A DNA stretch of 64,000 bases from Hyphomicrobiales bacterium (GTDB taxonomy: Bacteria > Pseudomonadota > Alphaproteobacteria > Rhizobiales > JACESI01). The DNA is taken from the NCBI GenBank assembly GCA_039973685.1, contig JBDWKL010000011.1:1-64000 (forward strand), given 5' to 3'. Positions 19,701 through 23,785 of the stretch are shown piece by piece. The translations under genes were made by a program, and so were the position numbers. Below the pieces are notes generated by a model that was given only the letters and a program-made list of their open reading frames with translations, had not been told where the DNA came from and made no database searches. Numbering within the stretch: the stretch's first letter is position 1; every line of letters starts with the position of its first letter.

Positions 19701-19715
19701 TGCGAATTATTCGCA
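19701..19715. promoter_or_regulatory. Fur-family-like operator 1 (Mur/Zur type) before the metal importer
   Basis: TGCGAATTATTCGCA is a perfect 7-1-7 palindrome 38 bp before the likely ATG of the binding-protein gene. The symmetry and length match operators of Fur-family repressors. It is centred 21 bp from operator 2, two helical turns. Rhizobial sitABCD is known to be controlled by Mur at two such sites. Confidence 0.65.
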
Positions 19716-19720
19716 TTATA

Positions 19721-19737
19721 TTTGCGAATGAGTTGCA
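19721..19737. promoter_or_regulatory. Fur-family-like operator 2, imperfect copy
   Basis: TTGCGAATGAGTTGCAA is a 17-bp imperfect palindrome (12 of 16 paired positions symmetric) with the same half-site TGCGAAT as operator 1. It lies 16 bp before the likely ATG, so a bound repressor would block transcription start or elongation. Confidence 0.5.
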
Positions 19738-19753
19738 ATAGCGAAAGTTGAGT

Positions 19754-20728
19754 ATGCAGATTTTTTCCTCTGTTGTCCGTAAAGTCGGGTTGTTGATCAG
19801 CCTTGTTTTTGCTGTTGCTACATTCTCATCCAACGCATTTGCAGCGCCGATTAAAGCAGTAGTCACTGTTGGCATGGTTGCTGATATTGTGACGACTGTG
19901 GGTGGGGAAGATGTTGAAGTCACTACGTTGATGGGATCAGGCGTTGATCCGCATTCCTATCGCCAGACCCGCAGCGACGTTAGTCTTCTTGCCAGCGCTG
20001 ATATTATTTTCGCCAATGGTTTGCACCTTGAAGCGCAGCTTGATGAGCTGTTGCACAAGTTGAGCAAACGCAAGCATGTGGTTTTGGTCTCCGATGAATT
20101 GCCAGCAGATGATCTAATTGAAGCCGAAGGGTTTTCAGGTCGCTATGATCCGCATGTGTGGATGGATCCAAGCCTTTGGCAAAAGACCGTTGCGATTGTG
20201 CGTGATGCTTTGATCAAGGCGGCACCCAATCACACAGTAGGTTTTGAAAAACGCGCCAAAGCGCTGGGTTCAGATATTACGCGCTTTGCAGGTTCTGTTT
20301 CTACAATGATGAAAACAGTGCCAGATGAAAAGCGCGTGCTGATTACCGCCCATGATGCATTCAGCTATTTTGGTCGCGCATTTAATGTTGAAGTGATTGG
20401 CATTCAGGGCCTTTCAACAGACAGCGAAGCGGGCCTCAACCGCATTGAGAGCATGGTAAAAACTTTGGTTGATCGCAAAATCGAAGCCGTGTTCGTTGAA
20501 AGTTCTGTCTCTAAACAAAACATCAAAGCCTTGATAGAAGGCGCTGCAGCACAAGGTCACAAAGTGGCTATTGGCGGCACGCTTTACTCTGACGCGATGG
20601 GTGTTGATGGAACCTTTGAAGGCACATATCTGGGCATGATTGACCACAATGCGACAACGATTACACGGGCGCTGGGTGGCGTAGCACCTGATCGTGGCAT
20701 CACCGGCCAACTGACACCATCGAGCTAG
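19754..20728 (+). CDS. Mn/Zn/Fe ABC importer, substrate-binding protein (SitA/TroA-like)
   Basis: 324 residues from the ATG at 19754; an in-frame TTG at 19748 is the alternative start. It has a signal peptide ending near AFA|APIK. Cluster A-I binding-protein motifs are present: GSGVDPHSY (first His ligand), RYDPHVWMDP (second), ITAHDAFSYFGRAFNVEVIG (third) and SDAMG (Asp ligand), as in TroA and SitA. The His-rich loop of ZnuA proteins is absent, which favours manganese (or iron) over a dedicated zinc role, though metal choice cannot be settled from sequence. It is first in a four-gene operon behind two Fur-family-like operators. Confidence 0.9.
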   Translation: MQIFSSVVRKVGLLISLVFAVATFSSNAFAAPIKAVVTVGMVADIVTTVGGEDVEVTTLMGSGVDPHSYRQTRSDVSLLASADIIFANGLHLEAQLDELLHKLSKRKHVVLVSDELPADDLIEAEGFSGRYDPHVWMDPSLWQKTVAIVRDALIKAAPNHTVGFEKRAKALGSDITRFAGSVSTMMKTVPDEKRVLITAHDAFSYFGRAFNVEVIGIQGLSTDSEAGLNRIESMVKTLVDRKIEAVFVESSVSKQNIKALIEGAAAQGHKVAIGGTLYSDAMGVDGTFEGTYLGMIDHNATTITRALGGVAPDRGITGQLTPSS

Positions 20729-20737
20729 GAAGTATTT

Positions 20738-21562
20738 ATGTCTAACACTGCTCTTAAGACTGTTTTTGATGGATCACGCGAAAGCGCCGCTAACGCCGTG
20801 GATGATGCATTTTCTGTATCAGACCTCACAGTTGCCTATGATCGTAAGCCCGTTTTATGGGATATTTCATTTGCTGCCCGATCTGGTGTGATTACCGCAA
20901 TCGTTGGGCCGAATGGTGCTGGTAAATCAACATTACTGAAAGCAGCACTTGGTCTCATCCCATCGGTGACAGGCCAGACTAAAGTGTCCAATCAAAGCCT
21001 CGCTCAAGCACGCGCCAAGGTCGCCTATATGCCTCAACGTGCTGCTGTTGATTGGGACTTTCCAGCATCTGCCCTTGATGTGGTGATGATGGGCCTATAC
21101 GGGACACTCGGTTTCTTGCGTTGGCCTGGCCGCAAAGAACGGGCGAAAGCGCGCAAATGTCTTGAGATGGTTGATATGGGCGCCTTTGAAAAACGCCAAA
21201 TTGGTCAACTATCCGGCGGACAACAACAACGTGTTTTCATGGCGCGCGCTTTGGCGCAAGAGGCGGATGTCTATTTGATGGACGAACCTTTTGCGGGCGT
21301 TGATGCGGCGACCGAAACCATTATTTTACGCACGCTCAAAAAGCTCGCAGCCGATGGTAAGTGCGTCGTCGTCGTGCACCATGATCTTGATACTGTGCGC
21401 ACCATGTTTGATGATGTTTTGCTGCTCAACAAGCAAGTCGTCGCAAGCGGTCCAATTGAGGATGTGATGAGCGATGATGCGGTTCGTAAAACCTATTCAG
21501 GTCGGTTGAGCATTCACCAAGAAGGCCCAATTGGTGGTGCGGCAGTAACACCGCATCTTTAG
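20738..21562 (+). CDS. Mn/Zn/Fe ABC importer, ATP-binding protein (SitB-like)
   Basis: 274 residues. It shows Walker A GPNGAGKST, the Q-loop at MPQRAAVDWDFP, the signature LSGGQQQR, Walker B VYLMDEPFAGVD and the H-switch VVHHDLD. The MPQR…WDFP Q-loop context is typical of the metal-chelate/manganese importer ATPases. It energises the two permeases that follow and lies 9 bp after the binding-protein gene. An N-terminal extension of ~25 residues precedes the ATPase core. Confidence 0.93.
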   Translation: MSNTALKTVFDGSRESAANAVDDAFSVSDLTVAYDRKPVLWDISFAARSGVITAIVGPNGAGKSTLLKAALGLIPSVTGQTKVSNQSLAQARAKVAYMPQRAAVDWDFPASALDVVMMGLYGTLGFLRWPGRKERAKARKCLEMVDMGAFEKRQIGQLSGGQQQRVFMARALAQEADVYLMDEPFAGVDAATETIILRTLKKLAADGKCVVVVHHDLDTVRTMFDDVLLLNKQVVASGPIEDVMSDDAVRKTYSGRLSIHQEGPIGGAAVTPHL

Positions 21563-21584: not shown

Positions 21585-22823
21585 ATGAGCGAGTTCCTTT
21601 CAGCTCTGTTTTTAGCCCTTAGTTTGCAAGCAGGATACAACACCTCCTTGGTGTTAGTCGGCTCCGCCATTTTGGGCGCGGGGGCGGGCGCTATTGGTGT
21701 GTTCGTCCTGCTTCGAAAACGTGCGCTTGTGAGTGACGCTATCAGTCACGCTACTCTTCCCGGTATTGCGCTCGCTTTTCTGTTTGGAACATGGGCCTTT
21801 GGTGATGGGCGCTCTTTGTGGTTGTTGCTCTTGGGCGCAACTTTGAGCGCTGGCATTGGGGTGTTGGCGGTTGAATGGATGACGCGGCGAACACGCCTTA
21901 CTGAAGATACGGCAATTGGCACGGTGCTCTCCACCTTCTTTGCCCTTGGCATTGTTTTGTTGACGTTTATCCAGTCGCTCGATGTTGGCGGGCAGGCGGG
22001 TTTGTCTGATTTTATCCTCGGCTCAACCGCTGGCCTTTTGCGGGCCGATGCGATGCTCATTGCGGTGACGGCAAGTTTGGTGAGTTTGGTTTTGATCACC
22101 CGCATTAAACAGTTTTCGCTGCTTTGTTTCGATCCGCTCTTTGCCCATGCGCAGGGTATGAAGGTCGCAAACTTAGATCGCCTCTTGCTGCTCTTACTCC
22201 TTGCCATCGTTGTGATTGGTTTGAAAACCGCAGGCCTTGTCCTCGTGATTGCGCTTACCATCATCCCGCCTGTCGCAGCTCGTTTTTGGACGGATCGGGT
22301 TGGCCCGATGTTGTTGGTGTCTGCTGCGATTGGCGGCATTGGTGCTTATTTTGGTGCAGCGTTCTCCTCAATTGCGGCTGATTTGCCAACAGGTGGTTTG
22401 ATCGTGCTCACGTTGTTTGCCGTGTTCTTGGTGTCCATGCTGGTCGCGCCAAGTCGCGGGGTGTTCGGCTCTACACTCAAGCATTTCTTCTTTCAGCGCA
22501 CGATCCACGAACGCCAAGGGCTTCTTGCGGTCTCTCGCGGTGAGCCGATTTTTGATCCACTCACAAGACGGCTTTTGATCAAGCGTGGATATTTGCGGGC
22601 AGATGGTGCGCCGACGAATGAAGGCACAATGGCCGCGCAAAAAATGGCGCGTGATCAAGCTTTGTGGAATGCTTATCGCCGTGCTTATCCAACCGAAGCG
22701 ATGATGCTGGATGACTGGTCTTTAAGGCCGATTGATGATGTGCTCCCGAAAGATTTGGTCCAGTCGCTTTCGCCTGAACTTGCGCCTGTTTCGATTTCCA
22801 AATCGAGAGGAGGGCGCGCGTGA
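21585..22823 (+). CDS. Mn/Zn/Fe ABC importer permease with DtxR-like C-terminal extension (SitC-like)
   Basis: 412 residues. Residues 1–290 form an ABC-3-type permease with about eight membrane segments and the conserved RKRALVSDAISHATLPGIAL loop. Residues ~295–412 are soluble and resemble the distal winged helix plus dimerisation helices of DtxR/MntR repressors: LTRRLLIKRGYLRADG, PTNEGTMAAQKMARDQALWNAY and LPKDLVQSL match the LT-x-x-G / R-x-x-LW / LSxELVxxL pattern. The metal-binding His/Glu residues of that region look replaced (MLDDWSLRPIDD). Chlamydial YtgCR is an established permease–DtxR fusion, so this may be a related arrangement or a degenerate remnant. Confidence 0.88.
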   Translation: MSEFLSALFLALSLQAGYNTSLVLVGSAILGAGAGAIGVFVLLRKRALVSDAISHATLPGIALAFLFGTWAFGDGRSLWLLLLGATLSAGIGVLAVEWMTRRTRLTEDTAIGTVLSTFFALGIVLLTFIQSLDVGGQAGLSDFILGSTAGLLRADAMLIAVTASLVSLVLITRIKQFSLLCFDPLFAHAQGMKVANLDRLLLLLLLAIVVIGLKTAGLVLVIALTIIPPVAARFWTDRVGPMLLVSAAIGGIGAYFGAAFSSIAADLPTGGLIVLTLFAVFLVSMLVAPSRGVFGSTLKHFFFQRTIHERQGLLAVSRGEPIFDPLTRRLLIKRGYLRADGAPTNEGTMAAQKMARDQALWNAYRRAYPTEAMMLDDWSLRPIDDVLPKDLVQSLSPELAPVSISKSRGGRA

Positions 22824-23785
22824 TGATTGAGTTTTTGCAGCTAGATTTCCCGTCCATCCTGCTTGGAACACTGGCCGCCTTATCGTGCGGGTTGCTCGGC
22901 AATTTCCTCGTTCTTCGCAAGCAAGCTTTGATGGGGGACACAATCAGTCATGTGGTGTTGCCCGGCATTGTTGCAGGCTTCTTGCTGACGGGTGTTTCTG
23001 CTACGTGGCCGATGATGCTTGGCGCAATGATTGCCGCTCTGTTTGCCGTTGCGATGATTGAAGTGATACGCCGTGCGGGCCGCATTGAGACGGGTGCTGC
23101 CATGGGTGTGATCTTCACCACCATGTTTGCAGCAGGCGTTGTGATGTTAGAGCAGAGCGGCGCGCGTGGTGTGCATCTTGATGTGGAGCACGCGCTTTAC
23201 GGCAATCTTGAAAGCGCGATCTGGCTTGATGCTTTTGGTATTTCAGACCTATGGAACCCCGCCGCCCTTGCGACTTTACCCGAAGCGATTTGGCGAATAT
23301 TAGGCGTGACGGTTCTCGTTATCCTCTTTATCCTCGCGTTTTACAAAGAACTGATGATCACCAGTTTTGATGTAGCCCACGCGGATAGCCTCGGTATTTC
23401 TTCATCTAAGTTCGGTATTGCCTTAGTGTTCATGACAGCTTTAGCAGCAGTTGCAGCTTTCGCAGCGGTTGGCTCGATTTTGGTGATCGCCATGTTCATC
23501 TGCCCCGCAGCGACCGCCCGCATGTTGACTGACAGGCTTTCAACGCAGCTTTGGATTAGTGCATTCGTGTCCATCATCAGTGGCATTTTGGGCTATCTGC
23601 TAGCAGCATTTGGGCTTGGGTGGCTTGGCTATGACAATAGTGTTTCTGCAGCTGGAATGATCGCGCTTGTTGCGGGATTGTTGCAAGTCTTTGCCATGAT
23701 ATTCGCGCCGCGTTATGGCATGCTCTTCAACCGAGCAACCAGTACCGATCAGCTTGAAGATGATACGCCGCGCATGACGCCTTGA
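22820..23785 (+). CDS. Mn/Zn/Fe ABC importer permease (SitD-like)
   Basis: About 320 residues and about eight membrane segments, with the ABC-3 loop RKQALMGDTISHVVLPGIV parallel to that of the preceding permease. The two probably form a heterodimeric channel. The start is either GTG at 22820 (GTGA overlap with the previous stop) or ATG at 22823; AGGAGG at 22808–22813 serves both. The last 37 bp overlap the convergent acetyltransferase gene, and no terminator is visible there. Confidence 0.92.
   Translation: MMIEFLQLDFPSILLGTLAALSCGLLGNFLVLRKQALMGDTISHVVLPGIVAGFLLTGVSATWPMMLGAMIAALFAVAMIEVIRRAGRIETGAAMGVIFTTMFAAGVVMLEQSGARGVHLDVEHALYGNLESAIWLDAFGISDLWNPAALATLPEAIWRILGVTVLVILFILAFYKELMITSFDVAHADSLGISSSKFGIALVFMTALAAVAAFAAVGSILVIAMFICPAATARMLTDRLSTQLWISAFVSIISGILGYLLAAFGLGWLGYDNSVSAAGMIALVAGLLQVFAMIFAPRYGMLFNRATSTDQLEDDTPRMTP

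Follow-up and report, generated by a model that had tools for sequence, protein, structure and literature searches.

A degenerate DtxR-like domain fused to an ABC-3 metal permease in Hyphomicrobiales and its possible role within the transporter

The gene product described here, best explained as membrane subunit 1 of a manganese/iron ABC importer that is encoded by four genes and belongs to a separate clade with tails, carries behind its ABC-3 membrane part a C-terminal tail of about 120 residues (288–412). As judged from profile comparisons, this tail descends from metalloregulators of the DtxR/MntR family. With a probability of about 0.6, we regard it as a module of the transporter that neither senses metal nor binds DNA and serves regulation or assembly, the mode of action of which we infer. 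The gene locates in a stretch of 64,000 nucleotides (in the following termed the window) from an alphaproteobacterial genome of the order Hyphomicrobiales.

The permease gene, its operon and transcriptional control

The reading frame at 21585–22823 on the forward strand is intact (412 codons from ATG to stop) and represents permease 1, the third gene of the four-gene operon (Table 1). A Pfam search assigned residues 23–287 to the ABC-3 family (PF00950, E = 1.5e-55), and the nearest solved relatives are the manganese ABC transporter permeases 7kyp and 7kyo (E = 2e-25). The PF00950 membrane part together with operon neighbours of the families PF01297, PF00005 and PF00950 places the protein in the ABC-3 metal permease class of the SitC/TroC type.

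Table 1. Coordinates of operon genes, upstream elements and tail features in the window
Feature	Position	Strand	Basis and remarks
Perfect palindrome TGCGAATTATTCGCA, candidate Fur/Mur-type operator	19701–19715		Only match with 0 mismatches in the window; just upstream of the operon; operator role inferred
Imperfect copy TGCGAATGAGTTGCA	19723–19737		2 mismatches; start offset by 22 bases from that of the perfect palindrome
Periplasmic metal-binding protein, ZnuA/MntC/SitA type	19748–20728	+	PF01297, E = 1.5e-69; AztC/MntC models below their own cut-offs
ABC ATPase, SitB/MntA type	20738–21562	+	PF00005; Mn transporter ATPase models below their own cut-offs
Permease 1, membrane part, residues 1–288	21585–22448	+	PF00950 over residues 23–287; match to 7kyp/7kyo
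Juxtamembrane helix into former DtxR helix 1, residues 293–317	22461–22535	+	Basic; unbroken and linker-free helix in the prediction
Degenerate DtxR-derived domain, residues ~303–400	22491–22784	+	Profile comparisons, fold of the model
Remnant of the DtxR recognition helix, residues 325–333	22557–22583	+	Preceding helix of a normal helix-turn-helix missing
Former dimerisation helix, residues 345–367	22617–22685	+	R356-D357-[E/Q]358 and W361 kept in most tails
Q358, position of MntR ligand H77	22656–22658	+	Alignment
R381 to D385, spanning the positions of MntR ligands E99 (R381), E102 (D384) and H103 (D385)	22725–22739	+	Alignment
Permease 2, tailless	22823–23785	+	Overlap of its start codon with the permease 1 stop codon

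An intact mntR gene (PF01325 and PF02742) is located directly upstream of the binding-protein gene, at a distance of 3.2–3.6 kb from the tail, in 11 alphaproteobacterial loci. No DtxR-family gene above cut-off was detected in the genome of the window or in the remaining tailed Pseudomonadota genomes tested; the former harbours two Fur-family genes. Since sitABCD of Rhizobium leguminosarum is controlled by the Fur-like regulator Mur (PMC5575495), the Fur-family genes and the palindrome upstream of the operon make it likely that a Fur-family protein controls transcription of the window's operon as well.

Descent of the tail from the DtxR/MntR family

Searched alone, the tail yielded no match in Pfam or NCBIfam and no meaningful sequence match in the PDB. 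The bridge to known proteins originated from a pattern scan of genome contigs, which returned only two relatives, one of them a planctomycete MAG contig (L002) encoding a permease with a clear Fe_dep_repr_C domain. A survey of 119 Planctomycetota genomes revealed many further long reading frames that contain PF02742, frequently arranged as tandem pairs; 20 planctomycete regions were fetched and their tails read and aligned. Comparison by hhalign of 20 tails with 14 planctomycete permease-1 tails, run after the shared juxtamembrane stretch had been cut away, gave P = 1.9e-12 (score 72, with 200 column shuffles reaching 23.5 at most), and comparison of the alphaproteobacterial tails with planctomycete permease-2 tails gave P = 4.6e-10. 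The profile of the planctomycete permease-1 tails in turn finds the structures of DtxR, IdeR, ScaR, SloR and MntR with E-values down to 3.5e-22. Because the tail matches the planctomycete permease tails and these match DtxR/MntR chains, it is, at the level of sequence profiles, DtxR-derived. The initial annotation of this gene, a metal permease with a DtxR-like C-terminal domain, is thus borne out by the Pfam match of its membrane part and by this two-step bridge.

Direct comparison of the 20 tails by hhalign with 13 DtxR-domain sequences, comprising 12 standalone repressors, among them 11 MntR proteins of Alphaproteobacteria, and one planctomycete permease tail, gave P = 4.5e-4, a probability of 33 % and a score of 29, which exceeded all 200 column shuffles (maximum 20). 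A direct hhalign alignment to MntR of Alphaproteobacteria did not suffice as sole proof of descent. Likewise, the match of the window tail to an HMM of the planctomycete tails (17.1 bits, E = 0.0015) was not accepted alone, because one in 5,000 shuffles attained 18.1 bits.

The comparison of a predicted structure with DtxR/MntR, proposed in the initial annotation, pointed less clearly in the same direction. The AlphaFold model of the tail (pLDDT 79) was built with one alphaproteobacterial relative only and with no DtxR sequence, and nearly all of its best structural matches are chains of the DtxR/MntR family, with Z up to 6.8 over about 80–107 residues; a Z of this size can reflect merely a common arrangement, and the weight of the result comes from the uniform match list and its agreement with the profiles. 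A Foldseek search of the model against the PDB returned E-values above 0.7, none of them significant. The domain starts at about residue 303–311 and ends at residue 400, within the segment (residues 295–412) previously noted to follow the DtxR pattern; the final 11–12 residues of the protein have a pLDDT below 50. The model of full-length permease 1 is poor (pLDDT 61) and unusable for judging how the tail packs on the membrane part or the ATPase. Overall, the tail would represent a folded domain, presumably located in the cytosol.

A mere resemblance of the tail to DtxR, with no common descent, appears highly improbable. The missing direct matches in Pfam and PDB, the Foldseek result and the one shuffled tail in 5,000 that equalled the score of the window tail with the planctomycete HMM would agree with mere resemblance, but are opposed by a profile–profile P-value to which no shuffle came close, by the planctomycete bridge to DtxR, by the independent fold match and by the membrane parts, which share one clade with the bridging proteins.

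Lost metal ligands, lost DNA-reading helix and conservation of the tail

Aligned via the planctomycete tails, the MntR ligands H77, E99, E102 and H103 (numbered as in Bacillus subtilis MntR) correspond to Q358, R381, D384 and D385 of the window protein, and these residues (Q, R, D, D) do not form the ligand set of the DtxR/MntR family. In a set of 33 different tails, E occupies position 358 in 23, Q in 6 and His in none, position 381 is mostly T or R, and position 385 is His in a single tail; only at position 384 is the ligand kept, E or D being present in 25/33. A histidine of helix 1, H308 (22506–22508), situated a single turn away from where MntR ligand D8 would lie, is kept in most alphaproteobacterial tails and may belong to a new site.

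The DNA-reading part is similarly reduced. About 13 residues between helix 1 and the recognition helix of MntR, i.e. helix 2 and the turn, are absent from the tail, its wing is about 4 residues shorter than in MntR, and it has neither a PF01325 match nor the complete helix-turn-helix of the family. With ligands and helix 2 lost, both halves of the metalloregulator, metal sensing and DNA reading, are therefore degenerate as judged from the alignments and the helices of the model. The previously suspected loss of metal-binding residues is confirmed by the two key histidine positions, and the degeneracy extends to helix 2 of the helix-turn-helix and to the wing.

The permease tails of Planctomycetota display a different pattern: the metal-binding and dimerisation domain PF02742 is present in 28/28, the DNA-binding domain PF01325 in only 1/28, compared to 12/13 in the comparison set of 12 standalone repressors and one planctomycete permease tail. 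A standalone DtxR/MntR gene lies close to some of the planctomycete operons that encode tailed permeases. Neither the planctomycete nor the alphaproteobacterial tails look like repressors held in reserve, and the wider clade points away from gene control. Individual loci deviate from this pattern. In four planctomycete genomes (L145, L146, L147 and L148), permease 2 bears only the winged-helix half of DtxR and no metal-binding domain, the latter being carried by permease 1 of the same operon. In another planctomycete operon (L151, genome G820), the permease-1 tail is devoid of the ligand histidines and the permease-2 tail lacks one, apparently a ligand loss independent of that in Alphaproteobacteria; this operon is adjoined by a standalone DtxR gene.

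When 385 sampled genomes of the class were searched with a profile built from seven tails, 14 proved to contain a homologous tail, and a broader profile gave 20 strong matches in 398 genomes of the phylum, with two of the genomes outside the class. In all 36 full-length reading frames extracted, the tail is fused behind the membrane part of this permease, and its length is steady across the family at about 110–130 residues. The tail is under purifying selection: its dN/dS ranges from 0.03 to 0.31 where the divergence of a pair is measurable, which is close to or a little higher than the values of the membrane part, and amounts to 0.09 for the window's nearest pair, a rough value since dS is near saturation. 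Divergence is somewhat higher in the tail than in the membrane part in several pairs. T344, G347 and D390 are invariant in the 33 different tails, many of which also have a motif of their own (DGLTPIE..LT.D) in common.

A maximum-likelihood tree calculated from the membrane parts (112 rows) unites every permease 1 with a tail, from Pseudomonadota and Planctomycetota alike, in one clade (support 100/100), outside of which the tailless ordinary SitC proteins of related genomes are placed; in the same tree, permease 2 of the window groups with planctomycete permease 2. Two members inside the tailed clade, L010 and permease 1 of L002, have lost the tail, which is thus dispensable in some transporters. 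Permease 2 carries a tail in many Planctomycetota and in none of the tailed Pseudomonadota loci examined.

Searching plasmids with a related tail gave a match in Azospirillum ramasamyi only. On a plasmid of Halomonas sp. PA16-9 (L036:4893–5999), the tail of a permease 1 within the tailed clade stops after the winged helix and has no dimerisation domain. A genome of the window's own genus (L023, G003) possesses no tailed importer and instead an ordinary tailless SitCD of another clade, with Fur-family matches a few kb away on the same contig, a pattern which suggests that the whole operon was replaced or transferred.

Possible function of the tail and comparison with known systems

Three roles had been considered in the initial annotation: a sensor gating the transporter, a remnant and a cleaved product. 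A decaying remnant of the ancestral permease–repressor fusion, devoid of any regulatory role and kept only since folding, or the translational coupling with permease 2, would suffer without it, would explain the lost ligands and helix-turn-helix, the tailless permease 2 and the tailless clade members. We nevertheless consider it unlikely, as it fits poorly with dN/dS well below 1, wide retention, the invariant residues, the tails' own motif and their constant length. Less probable still is a re-tuned sensor, in which a candidate new site composed of e.g. H308, E/Q358 and E/D384 would bind cytosolic Mn or Fe and gate the transporter (trans-inhibition). The residues prevailing at these positions among the tails would allow for such a site, and planctomycete tails with a canonical metal domain and a mostly undetectable helix-turn-helix are as expected were metal-gated transport ancestral; however, the window's lineage has Q rather than E at position 358, and neither canonical position is occupied by His. 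Without the ligands, sensing in the manner of DtxR is impossible.

Cleavage of the tail to yield a repressor of the operon is very unlikely and the least supported of the three roles, even though the overall architecture is alike and chlamydial YtgCR is processed in this way (PMC5599777, PMC6504234). The tail has no complete DNA-reading motif and no ligands, whereas YtgR itself retains its metal-coordinating residues (PMC5599777); a separate intact mntR adjoins the operon in 11 relatives, and a helix is predicted to run unbroken from near the membrane into the tail.

Because the cleaved repressor, the simple remnant and the DtxR-type sensor each fit poorly, a module acting on the transporter and not on DNA is the preferred reading. 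The fusion of a DtxR/MntR repressor with the permease would predate the spread of the clade through Planctomycetota and Alphaproteobacteria. In the window's lineage, the tail would then have lost metal sensing and DNA reading while retaining a folded cytosolic domain, which may pack against the cytosolic face of the permease or against the ATPase and tune or stabilise transport independently of bound metal. Transcription of the operon would be left to other proteins, i.e. a Fur-family regulator here and a separate MntR in many relatives.

It is conceivable, though we propose it only tentatively, that permease-fused DtxR domains represent a class of built-in transporter regulators rather than repressors, in which DNA reading was lost repeatedly. 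Planctomycetes would have retained metal sensing as a direct feedback on transport, and the alphaproteobacterial domain would be a metal-blind module answering something else or locking the assembly. In the literature searched, YtgCR is the one permease–DtxR fusion found with a described function, and its cleaved-repressor reading is easily extended to all such fusions. The present data argue that such a mechanism is impossible for many of them, since the DNA-binding half has faded and the metal site is kept in Planctomycetota, and both are gone from a conserved domain in Alphaproteobacteria. The idea that a former repressor directly regulates a metal importer can now be tested, and caution is advised against annotating permease tails of this kind as metal-dependent regulators.

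Permease–DtxR fusions as such are already known, having been reported in 11 phyla (Thompson et al. 2012, as cited in PMC5599777), and the conserved degenerate tail is a variant thereof. In the literature searched, no description of a SitC extended at its C-terminus was found, and neither the conserved degenerate tail nor the planctomycete contrast between a kept metal domain and a faded DNA-binding domain was encountered there. With YtgCR and other permease–DtxR fusions, the window protein shares the combination of an ABC-3 permease 1 and a C-terminal DtxR-derived domain in one chain, encoded in a four-gene metal uptake operon. Chlamydial YtgR, however, is released from YtgCR by cleavage, retains the metal ligands and binds DNA together with Fe2+, whereas the window tail has neither ligands nor helix 2 of the helix-turn-helix, and other repressors are at hand. 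Compared to DtxR, MntR and IdeR (PF01325 and PF02742), the tail agrees in descent and in the modelled arrangement of the retained helices, but is not free-standing, has no metal site and no complete helix-turn-helix, and remains below the Pfam cut-off. The manganese importers SitABCD, MntABC and PsaBC correspond to the window's system in operon make-up and permease family (PDB 7kyp/7kyo); the ordinary SitC of related genomes, in contrast, stops after the membrane part and belongs to another clade. The closest relatives of the window tail are found in the DtxR-tailed permeases 1 and 2 of planctomycetes, which belong to the same transporter clade but keep the metal-binding domain (28/28), often bear tails on both subunits and have an undetectable DNA-binding part in 27/28.
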